DNA from: an uncultured Bacilli bacterium
Lineage (GTDB): Bacteria > Bacillota_I > Bacilli_A > RF39 > UBA660
NCBI GenBank assembly: GCA_949439935.1
Contig: CASRZA010000004.1
Location: 1 to 36,871, forward strand
Length of the DNA stretch: 36,871 nt
Direction of reading: 5' to 3'
This document shows positions 312 to 34,231 of the stretch, piece after piece. Position 1 is the first letter of the stretch. Every line of letters begins with the position of its first letter. The position numbers and the translations under genes are program-made. The notes below the pieces were generated by a model. It was given only the letters and a program-made list of their open reading frames with translations. It ran no database searches and was not told where the DNA came from.

Positions 312-1595
312 ATGAAAAAACTAAAGATTATAGCGATCGTCTTTACGATGATGTTCGTTCATTTACTAAATGTAGATGCAGCTTCATTTGGAATGACGTC
401 TTCCAAAAACCAAGTTTCACCGAATGGAACTTTTACAGTTAAAGTAGGTGGAGAATGTATAGGAAGAGTAGACTTAAAAGTGAGCAACGGAAGCCTCTCA
501 TCTTCTAGTATATGGGTAGAACAAGGTTATATAACCGTAACAGTCACGGCAGGGGCCTCTGGAAACGTGACAGTCACAGCGACACCAGTAACAGGTTTTT
601 CTGATCCCGATGCAAATTTATACAACCCAGGTTCTAGAAGCGTTACGGTAAAGATCGCTGAACCTACTACAACCAAGCCTGGAACGGTGACGACTACAAA
701 GAAACCTAACAACAATGGTACTACTTTAAAAAAATCCCAAGACAACGATTTAGCCAGTCTAACTGTCAGTGAAGGTACACTGTCACCAGCATTCGATCCT
801 GAAATTACAGAATATACTTTAAACTTACCGAAAGATAATAAAGAACTTACTATTAAGGCTTCTACTAAAGACTCAAAAGCTAAAATAAATGGTGCAGGTA
901 AAGTCACTTTAAAATTCGGTCAAAATGTCATCGAAGTCGTCGTTACAGCAGAAAACGGTTCAAAAAAGACGTATCGTATAAAAGCATATGTCGATGAATC
1001 TCCAGACGTTTTCTTAGACTATCTAGATGGAAAAATAGGAATCGTTAAAAACGCCGAAGGAATTCCTGCTTTAGAAGGATTCGAATCAAAAGAACACGAG
1101 ATCGATGGAAAAAAGATAACTATTTTCACTAAAGATAAGCTGTCTTTAATATATGGTTTAAACGGCGAAGAAAGAAACTATTACCTTTTCGACAAAGAGA
1201 AAAATACGATCATAAATCTCTTGACTCCCGTCACTATAAAAGACCACATCCTCTTCGTGATAGATAAAAAGATCGAAGAAGATTATCTAAAAAAAGAGAC
1301 AGTCGCAAGGGGCGACGAAAAATTCGCATGTTACAAATTCGACCGAAGCGATGCGAACTACTGTCTTTTGACAGCTATAGATAAAGAAGGAAATTACAAA
1401 GAATATCTGTACGAGACTACAGAAGAAACGTTCCAACTATATCCAAAATTCTTACTCGATTATAGTGGTGATGAAAAATCCAAAAATGATATTATATTAT
1501 ACGTTCTAGGCGGTCTTCTAGGTGTATCTTTCATCGTTATTATAGTTATGGTATCGAATACGAAAAAGGGGAACAAAAATGAAAAAAATAAATAA
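312..1595 (+). CDS. Membrane-anchored cadherin-like/Ig-like surface protein
   Basis: Predicted exported protein of 427 aa. Residues 1-24 are a signal peptide ending near VDA-A. Residues 25-115 are a beta-rich Ig/cohesin-like domain (SPNGTFTVKVGG near its start). Residues 116-145 form a Thr/Pro/Lys-rich linker, and about 147-228 match the cadherin-like beta-sandwich pattern (LASLTVSEGTLSPAFDPEITEYTL, ending in ENGSKKTYRI). A unique 170-residue domain follows, then a C-terminal membrane helix (about 395-416) with a short basic tail. It would sit in the membrane with its domains outside. The next gene, a dockerin-bearing protease, overlaps its end by 17 nt, so they are co-translated. The N-terminal domain could be a dockerin partner, but that is inference; no cohesin signature is certain. 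Start chosen for its AAGGAG site. Confidence 0.8.
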   Translation: MKKLKIIAIVFTMMFVHLLNVDAASFGMTSSKNQVSPNGTFTVKVGGECIGRVDLKVSNGSLSSSSIWVEQGYITVTVTAGASGNVTVTATPVTGFSDPDANLYNPGSRSVTVKIAEPTTTKPGTVTTTKKPNNNGTTLKKSQDNDLASLTVSEGTLSPAFDPEITEYTLNLPKDNKELTIKASTKDSKAKINGAGKVTLKFGQNVIEVVVTAENGSKKTYRIKAYVDESPDVFLDYLDGKIGIVKNAEGIPALEGFESKEHEIDGKKITIFTKDKLSLIYGLNGEERNYYLFDKEKNTIINLLTPVTIKDHILFVIDKKIEEDYLKKETVARGDEKFACYKFDRSDANYCLLTAIDKEGNYKEYLYETTEETFQLYPKFLLDYSGDEKSKNDIILYVLGGLLGVSFIVIIVMVSNTKKGNKNEKNK

Positions 1596-4464
1596 GATTT
1601 TAACTTTAATTTTTGCTCTTTCCTTATTCTTCATACCGAGTTCGAGCTTTCAAGACCCACGAATAATCGATACGGCCATTTCGCATAAAGAATCCTTAAA
1701 CCAATTTAGGACAGCAGAAAAGAGAAATATAGAGAACATCGCGATATTTATCAGTTTCGATGGAGATGCGACAAAAGTACCACATCCGATCGACGATGAA
1801 CAGAGTATCAAAAATGCCGAAACGATCTTTAATTCGGACGACCTGTTCGACATGGTCGGACCAAATGGAATCGTCAAGGTGCCTTCTTTCAAAAAATATT
1901 ATGAAAAGCAAAGTTATGGTGCACTTTCGATCTCGACCAGTTTTCTTCCTAAAAAAGATGGCAAAGTAGTATCTTTCCAAGATCCTAATCCGATCGGTTA
2001 TTATCTAAAATATTCGACTGGCAATACTATAGGATACAGGGATAATGCCGAACTGTTAAAAAGAGAAACCGAACTAGTTGAGAACGCACTTGCTCATATC
2101 TCAAGCGAGATAACAAACCTAAACTTTACAGCAGACGACTTGGATACCGATAAAAACGGGTATATAGATGCCATTACTCTCATAGTAGAGACACAGAAAA
2201 ATATGCCTACCACTATATCGTGGAACGATCTTTTGTGGTCACACATGAGAGATAACGACGGTATACAGTCTTCACTGTTGGGCAAAAAAGTAAGATCATA
2301 TACTTTACTTCAAGCGTCCGATTATACCGAAGCCGCGGGATTGTTCTCTTTAAACAGAGGAACCTATGGAACTTTAGTACACGAATTTGGACATTCTTTG
2401 GGATATAAAGATCTCTATCGATATGGAAGTTCTACTTCAAAACCCGTAGGATTCTATGATATCATGGGTAGCTCGATCGGTTCTAATCCCCAAGATTTCC
2501 TGACATACTTCATAAGTGAATACGATGCTTCCACCGCGTGGCATACACCGATTCCGTCTATCGATAAAACGACTGAAAATATAACTTTATACAAACCGAA
2601 ATTTATCGATAAAGACGAGAAAAGAGCACTAAAACTGTTGATAGATGGTACTCCAGAACAATTCTTTGTAGTAGAATACTACGAAAAAAGAGATACCTTC
2701 AATACTTATACTGCCGACCAAAGTGGAATAATAATCTACAGAGTCAACGAAGATAATAAATACTTAGGAAGTTCAGATGACAGCAATGACGGTAAATATG
2801 ATCACATATATGTGTTTAGACCGGGTGAGACTAGTTTAGGAGCCGGACAAGGTAATTTGACACAAGCTACCTTGAATATGAATAGGCCTACGTTCGGTAA
2901 AGATTTAAACCTCGCAGACAAAACTTTCGACGGCGAAACGCTTTTCTTATCTAATGGATCAAATACTGGTATAAAGATAAATGTGACCGCTGAGACATCT
3001 GAATCGATCACTTTCACGGTTACATATCCATCACACGATGGGAGTGGAACCCAAAGCGACCCTTACTTAATCGGCGATGTCGACACTTTTGTTTATCTCA
3101 TGGGACTTAACACGAAGAATAAATTTTACAAATTGACATCTGACCTAGATTTTAAAGATGTCAAAAATTACCCCTTAATCGACTTTGAAGGCTCTTTAGA
3201 TGGAGATGGAAAAACTTTAAAAAATATCTCTTCCACTGACTCTGGAATATTCGACAATTTAGGAAATTTCGGTGCACATTCGACTATAGAGAATCTGAAC
3301 ATAGAGAATCTAACCGCCTATACAAAGGGCGGAAATCACTTAGGAGCTTTGGCAAATTATGCAAGTAATGTTACGATTAAAAACGTCCACATAAAAAACG
3401 GAACTGTTACGAATGAAGGAAACTCTATTAACTCGATCGTGTCGACAGGCGGTTTCATAGGAAGTGCAGACAACACTGTCGTAATCGAAGATTCTTCGAC
3501 AAAGATACATGTCAGTGCGAACCAGACAGTCGGAGGATTCTTAGGGATCAACATGGGCGCTAAAATAAAAGATTGCTTTGCCCAAGGATCTATAGAAAGC
3601 AAATTGAGAAAGGGTGGCTTTATAGGCTTACAAGCTATAACATCATCACCTTATATAGCGCCAGAAAACGCCTTCTTTGATTCTAGTGAAGATGAAAATT
3701 TAAAAGCAGTTGGTGGTTATGCACAAAACATGCACGATCTATCCATTTTAGATGAAAATTCGTTATCTAAAAACATAACAGCTATTTCACTTGGTAAGAA
3801 TCTCACAATTAAAGAAAATTCACATGCCAATGTTCCAATAAAAACGACTCCTAATAAAAACGTCACTTATGATGTCACGATAGAAAATAAAGACGTCGCA
3901 AGCTATCAAAATAAATTGTTACTGGGACTCAAAACAGGAACTACAAAAGTTTACATCGACGTTTTAGTAGGCAAAGGTCGCATGCGTCTAGAGACAAATA
4001 TAGTCGTCGAAAGAGGAGATGGATCTTTAAGTGAAAATGAATTTCTCGTTCTGTTAGGATTACACAAGAAAAATGACTTTGTCGTCGGATTCAATTTAAA
4101 CACGCCGATAAATGACATAAAGGACAAAATCTCCAATATAACAGGTACATCTTTAAAAAGCTTCACCGATTCGACAGGAACAGAACTGCAAGGCGGTATA
4201 ATCAGCACGGGTATGGTCTTCACGGTTACTATAGATAATACTGATTATACATATACGATCGTAATCAAAGGAGATGTAAATGGAGATGGTCTCATATATG
4301 CGACAGACTATGTCAAAATTAAAAATTACATCATGAACAAAGGCACTTTGACAGGCCCTTATGCGTTTGCTGCAGACATAGACGGCGACGGAAAAATATA
4401 TGCGACAGATTACGTCCAGATCAAAAATCACATCATGGGTAAAAAACCTATAGAACAAAAATAA
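1579..4464 (+). CDS. Secreted M6-family metalloprotease with C-terminal dockerin
   Basis: A 961-aa exported zinc protease of the immune-inhibitor-A-like M6 family. Residues 1-23 are a signal peptide. The catalytic domain spans roughly 40-400 and carries HEFGHSLGYKD at 268-278, a HExxHxxGxxD zinc site. Residues about 480-700 are repetitive and GLUG/beta-helix-like (GGFIG, GGFLG), a likely surface adhesion region. Ig-like stretches follow, and the last 65 residues are a type I dockerin with two calcium loops (GDVNGDG and ADIDGDG), each followed by YATDYVxIKNxIM. The family degrades extracellular proteins; dockerins bind cohesins on scaffolds or the cell surface. It overlaps the anchored upstream protein and has an AAAAAGGGG ribosome site inside it. 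No cohesin gene is obvious in the window. Confidence 0.9.
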   Translation: MKKINKILTLIFALSLFFIPSSSFQDPRIIDTAISHKESLNQFRTAEKRNIENIAIFISFDGDATKVPHPIDDEQSIKNAETIFNSDDLFDMVGPNGIVKVPSFKKYYEKQSYGALSISTSFLPKKDGKVVSFQDPNPIGYYLKYSTGNTIGYRDNAELLKRETELVENALAHISSEITNLNFTADDLDTDKNGYIDAITLIVETQKNMPTTISWNDLLWSHMRDNDGIQSSLLGKKVRSYTLLQASDYTEAAGLFSLNRGTYGTLVHEFGHSLGYKDLYRYGSSTSKPVGFYDIMGSSIGSNPQDFLTYFISEYDASTAWHTPIPSIDKTTENITLYKPKFIDKDEKRALKLLIDGTPEQFFVVEYYEKRDTFNTYTADQSGIIIYRVNEDNKYLGSSDDSNDGKYDHIYVFRPGETSLGAGQGNLTQATLNMNRPTFGKDLNLADKTFDGETLFLSNGSNTGIKINVTAETSESITFTVTYPSHDGSGTQSDPYLIGDVDTFVYLMGLNTKNKFYKLTSDLDFKDVKNYPLIDFEGSLDGDGKTLKNISSTDSGIFDNLGNFGAHSTIENLNIENLTAYTKGGNHLGALANYASNVTIKNVHIKNGTVTNEGNSINSIVSTGGFIGSADNTVVIEDSSTKIHVSANQTVGGFLGINMGAKIKDCFAQGSIESKLRKGGFIGLQAITSSPYIAPENAFFDSSEDENLKAVGGYAQNMHDLSILDENSLSKNITAISLGKNLTIKENSHANVPIKTTPNKNVTYDVTIENKDVASYQNKLLLGLKTGTTKVYIDVLVGKGRMRLETNIVVERGDGSLSENEFLVLLGLHKKNDFVVGFNLNTPINDIKDKISNITGTSLKSFTDSTGTELQGGIISTGMVFTVTIDNTDYTYTIVIKGDVNGDGLIYATDYVKIKNYIMNKGTLTGPYAFAADIDGDGKIYATDYVQIKNHIMGKKPIEQK

Positions 4465-4511: not shown

Positions 4512-4540
4512 TTGAATAGACTTCTGATCCGTGATATAAT
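4512..4540 (+). promoter_or_regulatory. Promoter of the nuclease/helicase/RT operon
   Basis: TTGAAT (4512-4517), a 17-nt spacer and TATAAT (4535-4540) preceded by TGA as an extended -10. It lies 22 nt before the first gene of the operon, whose ribosome site is AGAGGTG (4551-4557). It is the only convincing promoter I see for the four genes to 8399. Confidence 0.75.
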
Positions 4541-4562: not shown

Positions 4563-5786
4563 ATGTTCAAAGAGTTTTTCCAATACGACGAAAATATTAA
4601 CTATTTGAAAAAATACTATGATCTCGACAATTCTTTGAAAAGATATGGGATCGAACGTATGGAAATTAAACACAGTAATTTTCTGAGATGGGCTTTAAGT
4701 CCAAATAACAGCAAAAGCTTAGGCACATTCTCATTGAAATGGTTCATAAAGTTGATCCAAACAAAACTTAGTGCTAATAGACGATTAAAAAAAATAGACC
4801 TCGACCAGTCCTGTCTCGAGGAAATAGATATCTTACGAGAGAAAAAGAACATTGATCTCTTAATAACTTTCAAAATAGGTTCCGAATGCTTTTCTATAGT
4901 CATCGAAAATAAAATATTTGCCAATATTCATGGAAAGCAACTTTCAGCCTACAAAGAAAAAATAGGAACAATATATAAAGAGAAAGGATTAACGTTCGAT
5001 GAAGAACTCGTAGAATACATTTTTCTCTATACAGAGTTTAAAGAAGATGCTAACGACGAAATAGAAAAAGCCAAACACGAGGGTTATATACCACTAACAT
5101 ATCAAGAACTTTATGAAAGTGTCCTAAGCAAAATGGCAGAATATTCGTTAGATTATACATTTACGATTAACATATTAGATTACATTCATGGTCTAGCCAG
5201 CTACATAGTCGATGGTTATGGAACTATGATTACAACAAAACAAGATGCAGAGTGCCTTGAAAGAATATTTAAAAAAAATGAAATGAAAGATTTAATTATC
5301 TCTTTGAGAGATTCATCTACAGAGGCTTACAATTTTTACAGTGACCCAAAGAACAAAGCATTTATAACATTATGTTTTATAAAATATACAAGTTTACTTA
5401 ATAAAAAAGTACAACTTGATGAAAATGAATCTGAAATCAAAAAACATTTGAATGCTATCTTAAACAAACAAAGATATATGCTCACTGTGGAAAACAAAAC
5501 AGAGAATTTCAGGAGTATAAGAAAAATGCTCCTGTACATAATAATTGATTATTTTTATAAAGAGAAAAATTACTCGGTAGAAGATATAGAAAAAAGATTA
5601 AATTCTCTTTTTCCTTGGAAATTGATAATCTCAACCGATGAAGAAATTCAAAAATACAAATACTGGTATGAAAAGGTCATGATAAGTGAAAAAGAATATT
5701 ACGTCTTGACTAACTGGGCACCACAAGACTATGATGATTTCAAAGACACTATGAATTCTGCTAATTTAGGATTTAAAGTTGAATAG
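4563..5786 (+). CDS. PD-(D/E)XK nuclease-superfamily protein (PDDEXK_4-like)
   Basis: A 407-aa protein resembling the PDDEXK_4 nuclease group common in defence islands. It shows the N-terminal HSNFLRWALSPN motif (37-48), then a core of NIDLL (Asp98), the acidic/Lys strand VIENKIFA (Glu115, Lys117) and KQLSAY (125-130). This is the usual D-ExK-QxxxY order of the family, so the active site looks complete. The C-terminal 200 residues are helical and unassigned. No signal peptide or membrane segment is present, so it should act on DNA in the cytoplasm. It opens an operon with a second nuclease-fold protein (14-nt gap), a DnaB-like helicase and a retron-type RT. A role as effector in phage defence is inference from context. 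Confidence 0.8.
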   Translation: MFKEFFQYDENINYLKKYYDLDNSLKRYGIERMEIKHSNFLRWALSPNNSKSLGTFSLKWFIKLIQTKLSANRRLKKIDLDQSCLEEIDILREKKNIDLLITFKIGSECFSIVIENKIFANIHGKQLSAYKEKIGTIYKEKGLTFDEELVEYIFLYTEFKEDANDEIEKAKHEGYIPLTYQELYESVLSKMAEYSLDYTFTINILDYIHGLASYIVDGYGTMITTKQDAECLERIFKKNEMKDLIISLRDSSTEAYNFYSDPKNKAFITLCFIKYTSLLNKKVQLDENESEIKKHLNAILNKQRYMLTVENKTENFRSIRKMLLYIIIDYFYKEKNYSVEDIEKRLNSLFPWKLIISTDEEIQKYKYWYEKVMISEKEYYVLTNWAPQDYDDFKDTMNSANLGFKVE

Positions 5787-5800
5787 TAAAAGAGGATAAC

Positions 5801-6436
5801 ATGAAAGAGCAAGATTTAGAGAATATACTCGAAACATTAAGACAGAAACGCCCAGTTTTTGTTTCAGAAGCAGATTTTCAATTCGCCTTAGCGTGGTCGA
5901 TACAATCGAAATTCAAAAATGCAGAGATAAGATTAGAATATCCACCAGAATACGATCCGAACGTTCACATCGATATCCTAGTAAAAATAGGGGTTGATTG
6001 GTATCCGATAGAATTAAAATACAAAACGAGAAAATGCGAAAAGGAAATCGACGATGAAACTTACTTTTTAAAAGAGCACGGCGCGACAGATGTGAACTGT
6101 TACAGGTACTTAAAAGACATCGAAAGGATACAGAGATTCAAAAAAGTACCTCAATTCAAAAGAGGTTTTACCATATTTTTGACGAATGATTTGAGATATA
6201 CTGATAGTCCAAAAAAGGAAGACTCTATTTATAAAGACTTTTCTCTAAAAGAAGGTTTAATAAAAGAGGGCGTTCTCGCTTGGGATAAACGAGCTAGCAA
6301 AGGCACCATGAAGGGCTGTGAGAAACCTTTAACAATGGATTCTAAATACTCGGTTTACTGGAAGATGTACAGTCAGCTCGATGACAGCAAAACTGGAACG
6401 TTCAAGTATTTAATTAACACTATAGAAAAGGAGTAA
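5801..6436 (+). CDS. Second PD-(D/E)XK nuclease-like protein
   Basis: A 211-aa cytoplasmic protein. The core NVHIDILVKIGVDWYPIELKYKT gives Asp58 and Glu71-x-Lys73 on adjacent strands, the D...ExK layout of PD-(D/E)XK enzymes. SEADFQFAL (22-30) supplies the helix and acidic residue typical of the fold's start. It differs clearly in length and motif from the upstream 407-aa nuclease, so it is not a recent duplicate. It lies 14 nt after that gene and 6 nt before the helicase gene, indicating one mRNA. I cannot name a precise family. Substrate and activity are unknown, and a degenerate structural role is possible. Confidence 0.7.
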   Translation: MKEQDLENILETLRQKRPVFVSEADFQFALAWSIQSKFKNAEIRLEYPPEYDPNVHIDILVKIGVDWYPIELKYKTRKCEKEIDDETYFLKEHGATDVNCYRYLKDIERIQRFKKVPQFKRGFTIFLTNDLRYTDSPKKEDSIYKDFSLKEGLIKEGVLAWDKRASKGTMKGCEKPLTMDSKYSVYWKMYSQLDDSKTGTFKYLINTIEKE

Positions 6437-6442
6437 TTAAAA

Positions 6443-7237
6443 ATGACTATACTAAAAAAAATAAGCGAAATTCAAATGACTGAAGAGATGAACAAGTCAT
6501 ATAAACTCGGTTTCGATCAGCTAGATACACTTGTAGGCAAAGTAAAAAGTGGGACGATAATTACTATAGGTGCAAGACCAGCGATGGGGAAATCCACATT
6601 TCTAAATCGCATAGCTTTGAATCTTTTATCTGAGTATAATGAGCCTATCTTATACGTTGGACTCGAAACCAATAAAGAAAGATTAGCGTTACAGCTCGCA
6701 TGTTTGGCAAAAGATGTTTCATTTAGAGATGTCTTTAATGACGATGAAAAATCAAAAAAGATTTTAGATGAATTTAAAGAAAAGAATTACGAACTGTTCA
6801 TTACAGATGATTGTATAAATATCGACGACCTTGAAAGTTTATTAAAAGAAAATAGACAGATAAGATTTCTCTTTATTGATTATATTCAGCTACTCGGAGA
6901 TGACAATGCAAATAATAGCATAGAACGAGTAGGTAATGTACTTAATAAAATTAAAAAACTAGCTAATGAATATAATCTCGTCGTCATCCTGCTTTCTCAA
7001 CTGTCGAGAAATGTCGAATATAGATTAGAAAAAAAACCACAGTTGACAGATTTAAAAAGCTGTGGAAACATAGAAAACGTATCTGACATCGTAATATTTC
7101 TCTATAGAGAATCTTATTACTCGAAGGAAGCTAAAAATGATGCGACAGAAATAATCGTTTCCAAAAACAGATATGGTTCAGTTGGCAGTGCCTTTCTCGA
7201 CTATGACAAAATGACTGGTCGCTTCTCAGATTATTGA
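6443..7237 (+). CDS. Stand-alone DnaB-type helicase C-terminal (RecA-like) domain protein
   Basis: A 264-aa P-loop ATPase matching only the C-terminal motor of replicative DnaB helicases. YKLGFDQLDTLVGKVKSG leads to Walker A GARPAMGKST (43-52). Walker B is FLFIDYIQLL, followed by VVILLSQLSRNVEYR, then QLTDLKSCGNIENVSDIVIFLYRESYY and the closing KNRYGS...DYDKMTGRF. Replicative DnaB is about 440-460 aa with an N-terminal helical domain; that domain is wholly absent here. It is thus unlikely to be the chromosomal replication helicase. It sits between two nuclease-fold genes and a retron-type RT in one operon, so I infer an accessory ATPase of that system, perhaps a hexameric loader or sensor. 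The start has AAAAGGAG (6427-6434) upstream. Confidence 0.85.
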   Translation: MTILKKISEIQMTEEMNKSYKLGFDQLDTLVGKVKSGTIITIGARPAMGKSTFLNRIALNLLSEYNEPILYVGLETNKERLALQLACLAKDVSFRDVFNDDEKSKKILDEFKEKNYELFITDDCINIDDLESLLKENRQIRFLFIDYIQLLGDDNANNSIERVGNVLNKIKKLANEYNLVVILLSQLSRNVEYRLEKKPQLTDLKSCGNIENVSDIVIFLYRESYYSKEAKNDATEIIVSKNRYGSVGSAFLDYDKMTGRFSDY

Positions 7238-7376
7238 TAAAAGAAAACGAATATGAATTGCATATCACGGGCGTTTCGCAGTGAATATTAAAATGTTACT
7301 TTATACATATCTAACGATATGTAAACCATTATGAATGGTTGTTTAAATGTTGGAATTCAAAAGGTGGTAGTCAAAA
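7238..7376 (+). ncRNA. Candidate retron-type structured RNA upstream of the RT
   Basis: This 139-nt gap holds three consecutive stem-loops: 7262-7288 (ATAT/CAC/GCG-TTT-CGC/GTG/ATAT with small bulges), 7304-7323 (TACATATC-TAAC-GATATGTA, perfect 8 bp) and 7324-7340 (AACCATT-ATG-AATGGTT, perfect 7 bp). TGAATT (7254-7259) can pair with AATTCA (7354-7359) to close the set. Retron msr-msd RNAs lie just upstream of the RT and carry short 7-10 bp stem-loops within an a1/a2 helix, so position and style fit. However, the closing helix is only 6 bp, no long msd stem is evident and the branching guanosine cannot be assigned. Boundaries are approximate. Confidence 0.45.
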
Positions 7377-8399
7377 ATGAATAGTTATGAAAATCTAGTC
7401 TGTCATATTTTAAATATTAGATATGACACATTGAAAAGAGTCTTAGGTGAACACAATTACAGGACGTTCAAAGTCCCTAAGAAAAGTGGAGGATATAGAA
7501 ATATTTCGGCTCCACACATATGTCTAAAGAACGTTCAAGAGAGTTTAGCGCAGTACATTGATAAGAAATACGAGTTTTTGGATTGTCAATATGGCTTTAT
7601 AAAGAATCGAAGCATCGTAGATAATGCAGTTTTGCATAAGAAGGCCAAATACATACTAAATATCGATTTAAAAAACTTTTTTCCTTCTATTAATTTTGGA
7701 AGAGTTCGGGGAATTTTTATGGCAAAGCCGTTTAATTTTCCTAAAGAGGTTGCAACCATATTAGCAAAAATAAGCTGTTATCACAACGAACTTCCACAGG
7801 GATCTCCTTGTTCTCCATCTCTTTCGAATATAGTTTGTTATACATTAGATCAAAAAATGATGAATATGAGTGGTCAATATGGATTTACCTATTCGCGATA
7901 CGCCGATGACATTACTATCTCAAGCGATAGACCTTTTCCAAAAGAGATAGTCACGCGTACGAAAGACAACATCGTCATCGTCGGAAAAAAATTAAGACAT
8001 ATAATCGAAAGTCAAGGATTCATTATCAATGAAGATAAAACAAACTATAGTTGGAACAACGAACGCAAAGAAGTGACTGGACTGATCGTCAACGAAAAAG
8101 TAAATGTCAAAAAGATATATGTAAAACAGTTGAGGGCTCTTCTAAATAATATCGATAAAGAAGGACTTTATTTCACAGCAAAAAAATATTTTAAATGTGA
8201 AAACATCAGCTTAAATGCTTCCCAAAGAAAGAAGTTAATAAAAAAACTTCGAAATATCGTCGAGGGAAGATTAAACTTTTTATCGATGGTTCGAGGCGCG
8301 AACGATTTAGTTTACCAAAAATATTTGGAAAAATATTTGGATATATTGCATAAAGAAAATCTGTATTCACCTAGCTTGAGAAAAAAATTAAAAATTTGA
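7377..8399 (+). CDS. Retron-type reverse transcriptase
   Basis: A 340-aa RNA-directed DNA polymerase of the usual retron RT length (about 300-350). Motifs in order: PKKSGGYRNISAP (34-46); GFIKNRSIVDNAVLH with the retron NAxxH signature (83-87); DLKNFFPS (97-104); LPQGSPCSPSLSN (139-151); catalytic YADD (175-178); GFIINEDKTN (214-223); and the retron VTG signature (233-235). The C-terminus has the thumb-like GRLNFLSMVRG pattern. There is no group II intron maturase or CRISPR Cas1 fusion. Retron RTs make msDNA from an adjacent RNA and work with toxin/effector proteins against phage. The ribosome site is GGTGG (7363-7367). It is the last gene of an operon with two nuclease-fold proteins and a DnaB-like ATPase. 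Confidence 0.92.
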   Translation: MNSYENLVCHILNIRYDTLKRVLGEHNYRTFKVPKKSGGYRNISAPHICLKNVQESLAQYIDKKYEFLDCQYGFIKNRSIVDNAVLHKKAKYILNIDLKNFFPSINFGRVRGIFMAKPFNFPKEVATILAKISCYHNELPQGSPCSPSLSNIVCYTLDQKMMNMSGQYGFTYSRYADDITISSDRPFPKEIVTRTKDNIVIVGKKLRHIIESQGFIINEDKTNYSWNNERKEVTGLIVNEKVNVKKIYVKQLRALLNNIDKEGLYFTAKKYFKCENISLNASQRKKLIKKLRNIVEGRLNFLSMVRGANDLVYQKYLEKYLDILHKENLYSPSLRKKLKI

Positions 8400-8564: not shown

Positions 8565-9578
8565 ATGACAAAGAAAGAAACTACAACTAAAACAAAAACG
8601 GAAAAGATAAAAGAAGAAGCTCTCGACATCGAGAATATTGAAAAAGAGATTACACTCAGCCTACAAAAGACAGCTAAGGAATTACAGGAAGATCTCGTCA
8701 CAAAGATCGACGAACAGATAGAATATAGAATTGATAAAAGACTCAAAGAGGAAGAGAAGAAAATGACTAAAAGACAGACCTTTAAAATAGTCAGACTGAA
8801 CATAATAATACTCATACTTCTCGTGGTCATAGGATACCTCGTTTACTGTCTGTTCGAAGTAGACTATTTTAAGTTTAGGCAAGTTACAATCGTGCCACCA
8901 AAGACAGATGTAAATAATAATAGGGAAGACGAAACACAGAATGATGATTCGACGACAGATAAATCTAAAGAAGAAGAAAAACTCGAAAAAGAGAGACTGA
9001 TGAAAGAAAAAGCCTTGAAAGAATACAGATATCTCGTAGAAAATCTACAGATAGAAGACGCTTCGATCAAAGAACTATATGAAGATAATACAACGCCTTC
9101 ATCTATGTCTAATGAATTAAAACTAAAAATCGCCTATAAAAATCTAAAAGATGCTGATATGACAAAAGAAGATGGAATAACTTCTTTTACAAAAGAGGCG
9201 TTACTCGATTCTGCAAAAAAAATCTTTGGCGAAGAAATAACTTTAAAAAATGAAACTTTCATTTACAATAAATCGCGCTTTATGTTTTATAACGATGCTT
9301 ATGTAGGATTTAAAGAAGAAGAGGAAAAATGCGATTATGTATATGAAATAATAGATGTAGATGTCGCCAAAAAAGACACATTAGAATTCAAGGTGCTGAT
9401 TGCCAAAACGAATTATCAAGGAAGTTTACTCGATTTTAAAGACCAAATCATAGATAACGAATACAAAAAAGATGGCTTATTATCATATAAAGAAAAACTG
9501 AATACTTATGTTTTCGAATTCAAAAGCGAAGGCGACAGGTACACTTTCAAAAGTGTAAAAATAGAAAGGCAAGATTAA
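8565..9578 (+). CDS. Single-pass membrane protein with cytoplasmic coiled coil
   Basis: A 337-aa protein of unrecognised family. Residues 1-75 are highly charged and heptad-like (KIKEEALDIENIEKEITLSLQ...), a probable cytoplasmic coiled coil. One membrane helix spans about 77-98 (LNIIILILLVVIGYLVYCLF). Residues 110-150 are an acidic low-complexity linker, and 150-337 a soluble, probably extracellular domain rich in Lys/Glu/Tyr. There is no signal peptidase site, so orientation N-in/C-out is assumed. It has a strong AGGAGGT ribosome site and its own promoter, and a TfoX-N gene follows after 2 nt. The linker-plus-beta C-terminal style recalls the other membrane-anchored proteins here (19156, 27813), but I see no clear homology. 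Function unknown. Confidence 0.75.
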   Translation: MTKKETTTKTKTEKIKEEALDIENIEKEITLSLQKTAKELQEDLVTKIDEQIEYRIDKRLKEEEKKMTKRQTFKIVRLNIIILILLVVIGYLVYCLFEVDYFKFRQVTIVPPKTDVNNNREDETQNDDSTTDKSKEEEKLEKERLMKEKALKEYRYLVENLQIEDASIKELYEDNTTPSSMSNELKLKIAYKNLKDADMTKEDGITSFTKEALLDSAKKIFGEEITLKNETFIYNKSRFMFYNDAYVGFKEEEEKCDYVYEIIDVDVAKKDTLEFKVLIAKTNYQGSLLDFKDQIIDNEYKKDGLLSYKEKLNTYVFEFKSEGDRYTFKSVKIERQD

Positions 9579-28654: not shown

Positions 28655-28684
28655 TTTTATTAGAATAAACGGGAGTGTATGGCG

Positions 28685-31600
28685 ATGAAAATATATCTAT
28701 ACTTAAAAAATAAAATCTTGTCTTTCACGATACCTCAAAAAGTATCAGGTAACTTCAATTTCGATGAAGATCCTATGGAAGAATCTAAACTCATCAACAT
28801 CGAAGCTCTCGACTCAGAATGGCATATCTATTCGACCTCCGAAGTAAGCGTCATGTCAAACGGCATGGTGCAAGGTCGGATACGTCTCGAAAAAAACAAT
28901 TACTATGTCATCAAAAGAGCAGGGATAGAATATTTGATATTCGTGACAGATACTTTTGACCCCAGTTTTTTGCCATATAGCTTCACTAAAGAAATAAATC
29001 TAGTCATAGGAAACGACTCCTCTTGCAACGTCAAATTCAATTGTCCTTATGTAAAAGGTATCGCCGGTAAAATAAGGATGGAAGGAAACTATATAATGCT
29101 AGATACGGGAACTTGTCCTATCTATCTAAACAACGCAGTAGTAGAACCTAACACGACTAGTCACATCGTCAAAAGTGGCGATCAATTAAACGTCTATGGT
29201 CTTAAGATAATGATATTAAACGGATTTCTTCTTCTAAATAATCCTAGCAACTGGATGAGTTGCAATTTCAGTTCGGCCCATCTCTCGTCTTATCAATTAT
29301 CCTATGGAAATGAGCCACAAGATTTAGAAATAAAAGATAAAGAATTATATTCAAAAGAACAGTACTTTTCTAAAGCACCTAGGATTAGACGAATAATAAA
29401 GACTAAAGAGATCGATTTGAGTCCACCGCCGCGCCAAGAAGGCGAGCAAGAGATGCCTCTTTTATTGACGGTTGGTCCTATGCTTACGATGGGATTAGTC
29501 TCTGGAATGATGCTTCTGAACACACTCTCGAGAGTGTCGGCAGGCACGGCTACCTTTCAGCAAGCCCTGCCTTCGATCGTTTCTTCGATCGCGATGCTCG
29601 CTTCGACGATCCTCTGGCCGACGCTAACTAGAATGTTCAACAAGGTGATAAAGGCACGGCGAAAAAGAGAGCTTATAAATAAATATACAAAATACTTAAA
29701 TAAGAAAAGAGAAGAACTCGAGACAGAACAGAAACTTCAAAAAGAGATTCTCTTTGAAAATTTGATCCCGATTTCCGAATGCCTGAACATCATTCAGACG
29801 GCTCGCGCGAGATTTTGGGATAGGCGAGTCGACCAAAACGACTTCTTACAAGTTCGCGTAGGTGTAGGAAACGAGCTTTTAGACGTCAAAATAAACTATC
29901 CAAAAGAAGGTTTTACGATCGACGAAGACGATTTAAAAAGAGAAGCAGACCTTTTAGTGAAAGAATTTAAATACATTCCCGACGTACCGATCAGTTATTC
30001 GCTATTTCAAAATAAAATCACCGCGATCATGGGTGAAAACGAGAAATGCCATAACATGCTCAACAACATAATTTTACAACTTTTAACTTTTTACAGTTAC
30101 GAAGATATAAAGTTAGTTGTCATAACGACACCGTCGAACGAAGGCAAACTGGCATACACTCGCTACTTGAAGCATTGTTTTTCGAACGACCTACAGATGA
30201 GATTTTTCTCTTCGTCGGTAGAAGGTGCAAAAAACTTATGTGACTATCTCAACATGGAACTTCAAAACAGGATACAATTATCCGAGGGTGAAACTAGGCT
30301 ATTTAAACCTTACTATGTCATCATCACTGACAATTACTCACAGATAAGAAGACACCAATTCGCCAAGACTTTAACCGAGATGGACGCAAACGTAGGGTTC
30401 AGCCTATTGATACTCGAAAAACAGCTGAGTAAGCTACCTAGCAAATGTGCAAATTTCATCAACCTAGACACCAACTCTTCGACTATACTTAAAAACTCGT
30501 TCGAATCGCAAGAGATGGTGCCATTTAAAGATGAAGTAAACGGTAACATAGACATGCTTGCAGTCACGAGATTGCTCTCTAACATTCCGATCGAATTCGA
30601 AGAAGGAAACAAACAACTGCCAGATACGGTCACATTCCTCGAGATGGAACGCGTAGGAAAAGTAGAACAACTTAACATTTTAAATAGATGGGATACGAAC
30701 GATTCGACGACCAGTCTTAGAGCCGAAATCGGTTTAGACGAAGAGGGCAGTATGATGTACTTAGACCTCCATGAAAAATACCATGGACCTCACGGACTGA
30801 TCGCCGGTATGACGGGGTCAGGAAAATCCGAATTCATCATCACGTACATTTTATCGATGGCTGTCAACTATAGCCCAGACGACGTCGCGTTCATCTTGAT
30901 CGACTACAAAGGTGGAGGCCTCGCCGGTGCGTTCGAAAACAAAGCGACAGGAATCTCTTTACCACACTTGGCAGGAACGATCACAAACTTGGATAAAGCA
31001 GAGATGGATCGTACTCTCGTCAGTATAGACAGTGAAATAAAACGTCGTCAAAAAATGTTCAACGAAGCTCGCGATCGCCTAGGCGAAAGCACGATCGATA
31101 TCTACAAATATCAAAGATATTTCAAAGAAGGAAGGCTTGCCGAACCGGTCCCACACCTTTTTATCATCTGTGACGAGTTCGCAGAGTTAAAAAGCCAACA
31201 GCCAGACTTTATGGACAACCTGATAAGCGTCGCTCGTATAGGACGTAGCTTAGGAGTCCACCTGATACTGGCAACCCAAAAACCGAGTGGAGTAGTAAAC
31301 GACCAAATATGGTCGAACACAAAATTCAGAGTCTGTCTTAAAGTTCAAGATGCTCAAGACAGTAAAGAGATGTTAAAACGTCCAGAAGCCGCGAGCATTA
31401 AGCAGACGGGACGTTTCTACCTACAAGTAGGATATGACGAATACTTCGCCCTAGGACAATCTGCCTGGTGTGGAGCAAAGTATTATCCGAGTGAGAAGAT
31501 AGTCAAACAGGTCGACAAAAGTGTCAACTTTATAGACGACAATGGAAACACGATCAAAAGTATCCAATCGGGTACCAACATCAAAATCGAAGCTCAAGGA

Positions 31601-33265
31601 GAACAGATCGCTGCCATAATGAAAAATATCATCGAAGTATCAAATATGACGAAAAAAAGAGCTCGTCGTCTGTGGTTAAACGCCATCGATCCTATCATCT
31701 TAGTCGACAACCTCGAGAAAAAATACAACTTTAAGCCAGTTGCTTACGACGTCCGTGCTATCATAGGAGAATACGATGCACCGGAAAGACAAGAACAGAA
31801 CTTGCTTACATACGATTTAGCAAAAGAAGGAAATACTGTAATATACGGAAACGACGAAATTGAAAGAGAGAACATCCTAAATGCCATTCTCTATTCGATA
31901 TGTAAAACCCACAGTTCCAAAGAGATTAACATCTATGCGATAGACTACGGTTCAGAGCAACTTAGAATATTCAGTGGATTCCCTCAAGTCGGAGGCATGG
32001 TCTATCTAGGTGACGACGAAGGACTAAAAAATTTATTCAAACTAATTATGGAAGAAGTCAAATCGCGCAAGAAAAAGTTGATCCCATTCGGTGGAACACT
32101 AGAAGCATACAATTCAAGAAACGAGAAAAAACTTCCACAGATCATGTTCGTCATAAACAATTACGAAGGACTCACCGAAATCTATAATACTATCTATGAA
32201 GACATTTCGTCGATCGCGAGAGAATGTGAACGATACGGAATAACTTTCTTGATCACTTGCAATTCTACAGCGTCGCTCGGTCGTCGAGTATCACAAGCGT
32301 TTAATAACAAATATGCACTTCACCTCGCAGATTCATCCGACTATTATGGAGTTTTCAACACCAAATCGAAGACTCGACCTCGCGATATTCAAGGAAGAGG
32401 TCTGGCCTCTACAGACGGCATACACGAATTCCAAACGGCATCTATAGTTCCAGAAGAAATGAACTTGAACGAATATATCTACCAAGTGTCAGAAAAGATC
32501 AAAAACTTGGACAGCACTTCTGCTAGAGCTATACCTGCACTTCCAGAAAGGGTTACTCTTGACTTAGTTGCAAAAGATATCACGTCGTTAAATAAAGTTC
32601 CTATAGGTATTTCGAAAGAATCTTTAGAGACAGTAAAATACGATTTTACAGCCTATGCGGCGACGACTATCGCATCTAACAAATTGTCGAATATCGACAA
32701 CTTTATGGATTCTCTCGTAGATGTACTCATGAGAATAAATGGACTCACTGTCTTCTTCGTAGATACGATGCAATCGCTGCCGAGCGTCAAAGACAAAGTC
32801 TACGACAACAGAAAAGTTAGCTACTTCGATTCAGCCTTCGATGAATGTTTAGATAAACTTATCGCGATCGAGGAAAATCCTGAAAATAAAAAATTCAACA
32901 TATTATATATTTTCTATGGTTTAGAAAAGCTTAAGTCGAAGGCAGATCCTGCGAAAATCGAAAAGTTATTCGGTTCGATTAAAACTACCGAGAATAGCAT
33001 GATGATAATGTGCGACGGTGCTAAGAACTTAAAATCGCTAGACTTAGACATGTGGTATTCTAAGATCAAAAATAATACCGACGGGTTATGGATAGGGCGA
33101 GGTTTAGGTGAACAACAGAGTTTTAGGATGACGAGGATAACAAAAGAGATGAGTGCCGATTATCCAAACAATTTCGGCTTCTACATATCTGAAAGTAATG
33201 CCGAACTCATAAAGCTTTTAGAGTTTAAGACTCTTTCAAAGGAGGGACAAAACGATGAAGAATAA
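28685..33265 (+). CDS. essC: Type VIIb secretion ATPase EssC
   Basis: A protein of about 1526 aa, close to the usual 1480-1500 of EssC/YukBA. The N-terminal 200 residues hold two FHA-like beta domains (VIGNDSSCNVKFNCPYV). Two membrane helices follow at about 261-315 (MLTMGLVSGMMLLN and SIVSSIAMLASTILWP). FtsK/SpoIIIE domain 1 has an intact Walker A GMTGSGKSE near residue 707-715 and Walker B LFIICDEFAEL. The second domain (NTVIYGNDEIERENIL) and third have degenerate P-loops, as is common. It drives export of WXG100/LXG-type proteins across the membrane. GGGAG (28671-28675) fits the ATG at 28685 better than the track's 28679. It overlaps the YukD-like gene by 11 nt. Confidence 0.93.
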   Translation: MKIYLYLKNKILSFTIPQKVSGNFNFDEDPMEESKLINIEALDSEWHIYSTSEVSVMSNGMVQGRIRLEKNNYYVIKRAGIEYLIFVTDTFDPSFLPYSFTKEINLVIGNDSSCNVKFNCPYVKGIAGKIRMEGNYIMLDTGTCPIYLNNAVVEPNTTSHIVKSGDQLNVYGLKIMILNGFLLLNNPSNWMSCNFSSAHLSSYQLSYGNEPQDLEIKDKELYSKEQYFSKAPRIRRIIKTKEIDLSPPPRQEGEQEMPLLLTVGPMLTMGLVSGMMLLNTLSRVSAGTATFQQALPSIVSSIAMLASTILWPTLTRMFNKVIKARRKRELINKYTKYLNKKREELETEQKLQKEILFENLIPISECLNIIQTARARFWDRRVDQNDFLQVRVGVGNELLDVKINYPKEGFTIDEDDLKREADLLVKEFKYIPDVPISYSLFQNKITAIMGENEKCHNMLNNIILQLLTFYSYEDIKLVVITTPSNEGKLAYTRYLKHCFSNDLQMRFFSSSVEGAKNLCDYLNMELQNRIQLSEGETRLFKPYYVIITDNYSQIRRHQFAKTLTEMDANVGFSLLILEKQLSKLPSKCANFINLDTNSSTILKNSFESQEMVPFKDEVNGNIDMLAVTRLLSNIPIEFEEGNKQLPDTVTFLEMERVGKVEQLNILNRWDTNDSTTSLRAEIGLDEEGSMMYLDLHEKYHGPHGLIAGMTGSGKSEFIITYILSMAVNYSPDDVAFILIDYKGGGLAGAFENKATGISLPHLAGTITNLDKAEMDRTLVSIDSEIKRRQKMFNEARDRLGESTIDIYKYQRYFKEGRLAEPVPHLFIICDEFAELKSQQPDFMDNLISVARIGRSLGVHLILATQKPSGVVNDQIWSNTKFRVCLKVQDAQDSKEMLKRPEAASIKQTGRFYLQVGYDEYFALGQSAWCGAKYYPSEKIVKQVDKSVNFIDDNGNTIKSIQSGTNIKIEAQGEQIAAIMKNIIEVSNMTKKRARRLWLNAIDPIILVDNLEKKYNFKPVAYDVRAIIGEYDAPERQEQNLLTYDLAKEGNTVIYGNDEIERENILNAILYSICKTHSSKEINIYAIDYGSEQLRIFSGFPQVGGMVYLGDDEGLKNLFKLIMEEVKSRKKKLIPFGGTLEAYNSRNEKKLPQIMFVINNYEGLTEIYNTIYEDISSIARECERYGITFLITCNSTASLGRRVSQAFNNKYALHLADSSDYYGVFNTKSKTRPRDIQGRGLASTDGIHEFQTASIVPEEMNLNEYIYQVSEKIKNLDSTSARAIPALPERVTLDLVAKDITSLNKVPIGISKESLETVKYDFTAYAATTIASNKLSNIDNFMDSLVDVLMRINGLTVFFVDTMQSLPSVKDKVYDNRKVSYFDSAFDECLDKLIAIEENPENKKFNILYIFYGLEKLKSKADPAKIEKLFGSIKTTENSMMIMCDGAKNLKSLDLDMWYSKIKNNTDGLWIGRGLGEQQSFRMTRITKEMSADYPNNFGFYISESNAELIKLLEFKTLSKEGQNDEE

Positions 33266-33539
33266 CAAAGTGTTGGTCCGTTTGATCGTACCAGAACTCG
33301 ATTACGCTTTCGACGTCTTCATCCCGATAAATGAGATCATGTGGAAGGTCAAAAAACTCTTAGCGAAATCTATCTCTGACTTAACGGGCAGTTTTCTAGA
33401 CATAAATGCCGAATACACGCTCGTCAACAAAGTGACGAGTCAGCCTTATGACAACAACCAAATAATCGCAAATACGGATATCAGAAATGCGACAGAACTC
33501 ATCTTCTTAGCTGTCAGAAAGAACAATGTAGGACTCTAA
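33255..33539 (+). CDS. YukD/EsaB-like ubiquitin-fold protein
   Basis: A 94-aa protein with the strand-strand-helix-strand pattern of YukD/EsaB (VLVRLIVPELDYAFDVFIPINEIMWKVKKLLAKSI... then TELIFLAV). These small ubiquitin-like proteins are standard companions of EssC in type VIIb systems, where they affect secretion or its regulation without being secreted themselves. Starts within essC behind AGGAGGG (33239-33245) and ends TAATG into the next gene. Identification rests on fold pattern plus context, not on strong motifs. Confidence 0.75.
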   Translation: MKNNKVLVRLIVPELDYAFDVFIPINEIMWKVKKLLAKSISDLTGSFLDINAEYTLVNKVTSQPYDNNQIIANTDIRNATELIFLAVRKNNVGL

Positions 33540-34231
33540 TGACAAAAATGGGTTTATTCGGATTCGGAGGATCAGAAATGACAGGTTACAACTGCGAGCA
33601 AGTTAACGCTTTGAGAGATGTAATCAATAACACAGCTCAAGAAGCTGGAAGAAATATTGTAGAAAGGTTACACAGTGACATAATCGTTCCTATGTCGACG
33701 GTATGGTATGCTCCAGAAGCAGTTACTTTCTTTGAAGGATTTGCAGATATAGTAAAAGACTCTGGAACTAATATTACTCAAGCTTTCGATTTGTTTAGAG
33801 CAGCTATACAAGCAGCAGGTCAAAATTGGGCTGAAAACACTGGTGGACAAGCACCAGTGCTTGCAACACTTGAAGAGGTAATATTAACCTTAAACGTGTC
33901 TGACATTCAGCCAGAGAATGCTGGAAGTGTCCTCATAGACGAAAAACAAGCAACAAATATAGCCAACAAACTAGGTCAAGTCGAAGAGAACATCAAATCA
34001 GAATTACAGGCACTTGCCAACAATCTTGATGCAGAAAGCGCATTCATAGGTCACGGACAAGCTGATGCTTTACAAAAATGCTTTGTCAACATCAGTGGTG
34101 AAATTCATAAAATTTTCAAATATCTAACTGAAGGAGAAAAATCTCTACAAGGTCAAATCAATGCTGCTGTTACAAAATACCAAGAAGTTTCCAGTGGTAT
34201 TTCAAACTCTTTCAACAACAATAGCAATTAA
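33539..34231 (+). CDS. WXG-like helical protein linked to type VII secretion
   Basis: A 230-aa, almost wholly helical protein. MTGYNCEQVNALRDVINNTAQEAGRNIVERLHSDIIVPMSTVWYAPEAVTFFEGFADIV resembles a WXG100 hairpin with WYA in the turn in place of WxG. A second helical pair follows (about 130-225, SELQALANNLDAESAF...). Twice the size of EsxA, so it may be a fused double WXG protein. Likely substrate or chaperone of the EssC machine. The ORF starts at ATG 33539 overlapping the previous stop, but CGGAGGA (33565-33571) makes ATG 33578 a serious alternative. No Cys-rich or toxin domain is seen. Confidence 0.75.
   Translation: MTKMGLFGFGGSEMTGYNCEQVNALRDVINNTAQEAGRNIVERLHSDIIVPMSTVWYAPEAVTFFEGFADIVKDSGTNITQAFDLFRAAIQAAGQNWAENTGGQAPVLATLEEVILTLNVSDIQPENAGSVLIDEKQATNIANKLGQVEENIKSELQALANNLDAESAFIGHGQADALQKCFVNISGEIHKIFKYLTEGEKSLQGQINAAVTKYQEVSSGISNSFNNNSN

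Follow-up and report, generated by a model that had tools for sequence, protein, structure and literature searches.

A retron whose partner is an ATPase derived from the replicative helicase DnaB is located in a 36,871-nt stretch of DNA (the window) from an uncultured gut bacterium of the Bacilli (RF39; UBA660; GCA_949439935.1, contig CASRZA010000004.1). Retrons are small bacterial elements that make hybrid RNA-DNA and usually defend against phages. Known partner proteins are nucleases, proteases, enzymes that consume NAD or modify nucleotides, and membrane proteins. The data support the DnaB C-domain ATPase as a real, recurring retron partner: the order ATPase, ncRNA, reverse transcriptase (RT) is found in Bacilli and Bacteroidetes alike, with retron signatures in the RT and an ncRNA in front of it. 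Judged by the PADLOC profiles and the open-access literature, such a retron is best read as an undescribed type.

The locus in the window comprises four co-directional genes on the forward strand, nucA (4563..5786), nucB (5801..6436), the ATPase gene (6443..7237) and the RT gene (7377..8399), separated by gaps of 14, 6 and 139 nt, exactly the layout reported in an earlier note on this DNA. That note also placed the genes behind one promoter. A sigma-70-like candidate (TTGAAT-N17-TATAAT, with a TG before the -10 as in extended -10 promoters) is present at 4512..4540 (+) and is the best promoter-like site on this strand ahead of the operon. Such sites are no more common across the region than in shuffled sequences (20 versus 18), so one promoter driving all four genes is plausible only. 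The flanking gene at 8565-9578 had no clear syntenic relatives for an empty-site comparison. Elsewhere in the window, a gene just upstream of the operon (1579-4464) encodes an M6-type peptidase that carries a dockerin domain and, weakly, a GLUG motif, and positions 28679-34231 hold the gene of a type VII secretion-like ATPase (1528 aa, EssC-like by eye) and, after it, one of 230 aa. A second RT of this genome (G000:C68:4489-5628, L034; RVT_1 only, E 1e-17) lies on another contig, which also carries ribosomal protein genes.

By its sequence, the 340-aa product of the fourth gene is a genuine retron RT. Both retron signatures previously read in it, NAVLH (residues 83-87) and VTG (233-235), are present alongside YADD (175-178), and its clade and the adjoining ncRNA agree with them; YADD, NAXXH and VTG are named as conserved retron RT motifs (PMC12405507). 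PADLOC retron RT models match it with E-values down to 4e-115, the best being those of types XII, XI and I-C (1e-79 to 4e-115), and solved retron RTs in the PDB match as well (Ec67, 3e-59; Ec86, 7e-39). The closest RT sequences are thus those of types XI (RT-protease), XII (RT-TIR) and I-C (RT-Toprim, Ec67/Eco2). In these types the effector is fused C-terminally, whereas the window RT contains RVT_1 only, ends at 340 aa without a fused protease, TIR, Toprim or other effector domain, and is preceded by a separate DnaB-like gene.

The 139-nt gap before the RT contains a retron-type ncRNA of 104 nt (7255..7358, + strand), to which the earlier note did not point. It is composed of an a1 arm (GAATT, 7255-7259), a stem (CAC-GCG/CGC-GTG), two hairpins and an a2 arm (AATTC, 7354-7358). 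Taken alone, the window copy has only a moderate folding advantage over shuffled sequences (z -1.9), and the case for it is therefore built on comparison with relatives. An equivalent ncRNA precedes the RT in every Bacilli relative, and the core TATCACGNGCGNNNCGCAGTG is common to the window and the fused RT-protease retron L056/L057, a sister lineage on the RT tree. Compensated changes occur in the a1/a2 arms (G-C to A-U in L054/L055), in hairpin A of L053 (U-A to G-C and A-U to U-A) and, several times among the Bacilli ncRNAs, in hairpin B, for which the folded L053 pair is ACTCCT/GGGAGT. This Bacilli set is small, and its pairs were counted by hand since MAFFT misplaced the a2 arm; the arms of the L054 and L056 ncRNAs were matched by string only. 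The Bacteroidetes loci contain a longer ncRNA in the gap between ATPase and RT, with arms GAGCCGTTG/CAACGGCTC. Here pairing is kept in 96.8% of cells versus 92.8% after shuffling, and the covariation score is 0.205 versus 0.124, with four pairs changed on both sides; the ncRNA of L120 folds at z -4.3. An Rfam search returned no family near or above threshold at the ncRNA. On these comparative grounds, the gap element is a retron ncRNA with a1/a2 inverted repeats and a predicted structured msr-msd region.

An RT-based scan of 85,462 genomes yielded 80 loci. In each of the seven loci most closely related to that of the window (L049-L055), ncRNA and RT are immediately preceded by a DnaB-like gene. 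L049-L052 and L054-L055 are near copies, which leaves four distinct Bacilli lineages when the window is counted. The same arrangement is found in 12/12 members of a Bacteroidetes RT clade; in one of these (L101) only a short piece of DnaB is open, and a second copy in the same genome has an open DnaB frame. The gaps between ATPase and RT measure about 90-270 nt and hold the ncRNA. When the presence of the DnaB-like gene was mapped as a label on the RT tree, four changes were needed versus 17.2 in shuffles, and none of 500 shuffles scored as low. The other RTs of the scan set, fused or standalone, have no DnaB-like gene, except L086 and L109, which were not counted because the DnaB match lies downstream of the RT behind one or more other genes and both sit on long branches. 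In L086 (9310-11078), a fused-length retron RT is followed by a 297-aa uncharacterised protein and then by the DnaB-like ATPase. A broader RT profile run on viral contigs identified one prophage with the pair (L137:4967-6954, on a prophage-like contig), where the DnaB-like ATPase directly precedes a retron RT; close relatives of the window RT or of nucB were not detected on the viral contigs. Relatives of the RT are present among plasmid sequences. Rather than occurring without an RT, the helicase-derived gene recurs with one in distant hosts, and its membership in the retron, proposed earlier from operon structure, is upheld.

The Bacilli form is rare (3/337 genomes of the order). When 376 Bacteroidota genomes were surveyed with a strict cut-off, the centre genome was the only hit; either the Bacteroidetes form is low in abundance or this sample is too thin. 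No further conserved gene was seen beside ATPase, ncRNA and RT in the Bacteroidetes loci, a two-gene form of about 2.3 kb, ncRNA included. In the RT tree, the Bacilli clade has the fused-protease retron L057 as its sister, and the DnaB-paired systems of Bacilli and Bacteroidetes fall in separate clades, from which it follows that the pairing of retron and ATPase may have arisen twice. Standalone RTs near types XI and XII (L100, L110, L112, L117, L126, L127; L059, L065) are followed by a neighbouring gene for a protein of about 200-390 aa; the copy in L086 lacks a Pfam match. These RTs are possibly further undescribed retron groups of Bacteroidetes and Cyanobacteria.

The identity of the third gene product (264 aa) as a DnaB C-domain ATPase was confirmed by profile and fold. 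PF03796 (DnaB_C) matches with an E-value of 4.9e-54, and a TM-score of 0.86 was obtained when its AlphaFold model (pLDDT 89) was superposed on DnaB C-domains; PDB matches of the model include DnaB with DnaC and with lambda P (6kza, 9oa1). TIGR00665 aligned only over positions 160-432, at 180.6 bits against an NCBIfam cut-off of 385, which is not reached, and the DnaB N-terminal domain, which is primase-binding, is absent. Walker A K50, Walker B D146, Q186 and K241/R243 are invariant in 14 aligned retron ATPases. In DnaB, the pair equivalent to K241/R243 reaches into the neighbouring subunit, so that the retron ATPases probably still use ATP between subunits. The LRESG loop, which touches single-stranded DNA in DnaB, is kept in most Bacteroidetes retron ATPases and altered in the Bacilli ones. 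Kept catalytic residues and an absent N-domain fit a working ring ATPase that would be unable to recruit primase. The prophage copy L137 has GRT instead of GKT in Walker A (lysine to arginine), and ATPase activity may hence not be universal among retron ATPases. In a tree of ATPase domains, the retron copies split from chromosomal and element DnaBs with branch support 100/98, and a single retron-ATPase clade is not rejected (p 0.18). A full-length DnaB is also present in all eleven genomes checked, ten of which hold the retron; in these ten the retron partner is therefore an extra copy.

We consider it fairly probable that the locus is a retron of ncRNA and RT in which the DnaB-derived ring ATPase is the partner, restrained by RT and msDNA and released upon phage attack. 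The RT would reverse transcribe part of the ncRNA into msDNA, and RT and msDNA would bind the ATPase and suppress its activity. Damage to this complex by a phage product, or binding of such a product to it, would release the ATPase, which would then form a ring on exposed single-stranded DNA, where it would either unwind or block replication forks, such that replication of cell and phage would stop together in an abortive infection. The ATPase could instead be a decoy of the replicative helicase, guarded by the retron: phage helicase loaders such as lambda P would bind it and thereby alter the RT-msDNA complex and trigger a response. The part retained is indeed the DnaB C-domain, whose matching structures include the complexes with DnaC and lambda P, and the altered Walker A lysine of L137 would be harmless in a decoy and favours that role for this copy. 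However, the other retron ATPases show no variation in the catalytic residues, and the Bacteroidetes loci offer no other conserved gene as a possible killer, so that the ATPase or the RT must be the active part there. We regard the decoy as unlikely overall, and a gated effector acting on replication forks is favoured over a bait for DnaB-seizing phage proteins.

The earlier note had counted two unlike PD-(D/E)XK proteins and the ATPase as a trio of effectors, of which only the ATPase holds as partner. NucA (407 aa) is a PDDEXK_4 protein (PF14281, E 1e-16) and matches the PADLOC candidate PDC-S26. For NucB (211 aa) no Pfam family was found at cut-off. Its D58, E71 and K73 are invariant across eight homologues, and the nearest PDB folds to its AlphaFold model (pLDDT 84) are EcoRV, HincII, Hjc and MGME1 with E-values of about 0.01-0.1, which makes a second PD-(D/E)XK protein likely, not proven. 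Homologues of nucA were found in eight other genomes among 327 of the order; the six neighbourhoods that were read have no nucB, DnaB or RT nearby, several homologues sit in an apparent mobile element behind a divergent HTH gene, and no other retron with nucA was found. Most nucB homologues in the relatives searched likewise have no RT nearby. Both genes are missing from the other retron-DnaB loci, except that L049-L052 have a nucB 1.7 kb upstream, as part of a mobile element also found in a retron-free version. Only in the window were nucA and nucB seen immediately ahead of the retron, and the set nucA/nucB/DnaB/RT was not seen to recur together in unrelated hosts.

A four-gene system with nucA and nucB as effectors gated by RT and ATPase, as first proposed, could draw on how closely the co-directional genes follow one another in the window (gaps of 14 and 6 nt), on the nucB upstream in L049-L052 and on the slot beside the ATPase, which is always filled in Bacilli. 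Against it, nucA stands alone in the other genomes read and nucB mostly does, and the Bacteroidetes and other Bacilli retrons exist without the nucleases. We hold this arrangement to be improbable, more so than the decoy; most likely, nucA and nucB are separate defence or mobile-element genes that adjoin the retron.

The slot filled by nucB in the window is occupied in the other Bacilli loci (L049-L052, L053 and L054-L055) by a gene for a small PolC-type OB-fold protein that overlaps or abuts the ATPase start (L049:2600-3088; L053:5015-5635; L054:6740-7129). The assignment is based on PF01336 or a PolC profile, below the cut-off of Pfam, and in L053 the domain is fused to an HTH. Neither the window nor the Bacteroidetes loci have this gene. 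Since it lies beside the ATPase gene in the other Bacilli loci, OB-fold protein, ATPase and retron appear as a three-part form typical of Bacilli, and nucB may have replaced the OB-fold gene locally in the window. In these relatives the OB-fold protein would help the ATPase onto single-stranded DNA.

In L049-L052, the retron lies in an element with nucB, a further gene X, the OB-fold gene, a DNA polymerase III alpha-like fragment and short DnaB-like genes; this element family occurs with and without a retron, as in L027 of genome G072, where the retron is missing. That version would agree with ATPase and OB-fold genes being replication genes of a mobile element which the retron merely adjoins, but this already weakened explanation is very improbable, as the DnaB-like genes of the element itself group with chromosomal DnaB and not with the retron ATPases, L049-L052 carry both kinds, and the Bacteroidetes, L053 and L054-L055 loci are unlike that element. 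Returning to the gated ATPase, we only tentatively propose its fullest version: a new type of retron, with one or two origins, whose gated effector is a ring ATPase derived from the replicative helicase that halts replication forks when phages attack, with an OB-fold loader in Bacilli and a nuclease in its place here.

Among described retrons, type I-A (ATPase + HNH, Septu-like; Ec78/Ec83) combines an RT with an ATPase partner in trans. It resembles the window retron in this respect and has a related RT; its ATPase, however, belongs to the SMC/ABC kind and comes with a dedicated nuclease, whereas the window has a DnaB/RecA-fold ring ATPase and no conserved nuclease. Replicative DnaB shares the C-domain fold and catalytic residues with the retron ATPase, which differs by its missing N-domain, its branch separate from the chromosomal DnaBs compared and its retron context. 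To our knowledge, and going by the PADLOC profiles, a DnaB-partner type is absent from the original retron classification (NAR 2020). None of the retron-partner profiles of PADLOC 2.0.0 matches the retron ATPases (only mads_8 does, weakly), and no paper was found in the open-access literature that describes DnaB or a replicative helicase as the partner of a retron. Published work counts 13 retron types (PMC12548924) or sixteen subtypes (PMC13405049), with other effectors. Retron-Sda1, in which HipA/DUF3037 lies next to a type III RT, is a precedent for a retron taking over another defence gene set as partner; its RT clade and partner differ from those of the window retron, and its RT and RT-DNA played no part in protection from the phage tested there (PMC12548924).

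As far as we have found, a DnaB-derived ATPase would be the first retron partner drawn from the replication machinery. The pairing would permit a direct test of replication as the target, or the bait, of a retron, and the two-gene Bacteroidetes form is small enough for transfer into a laboratory strain.
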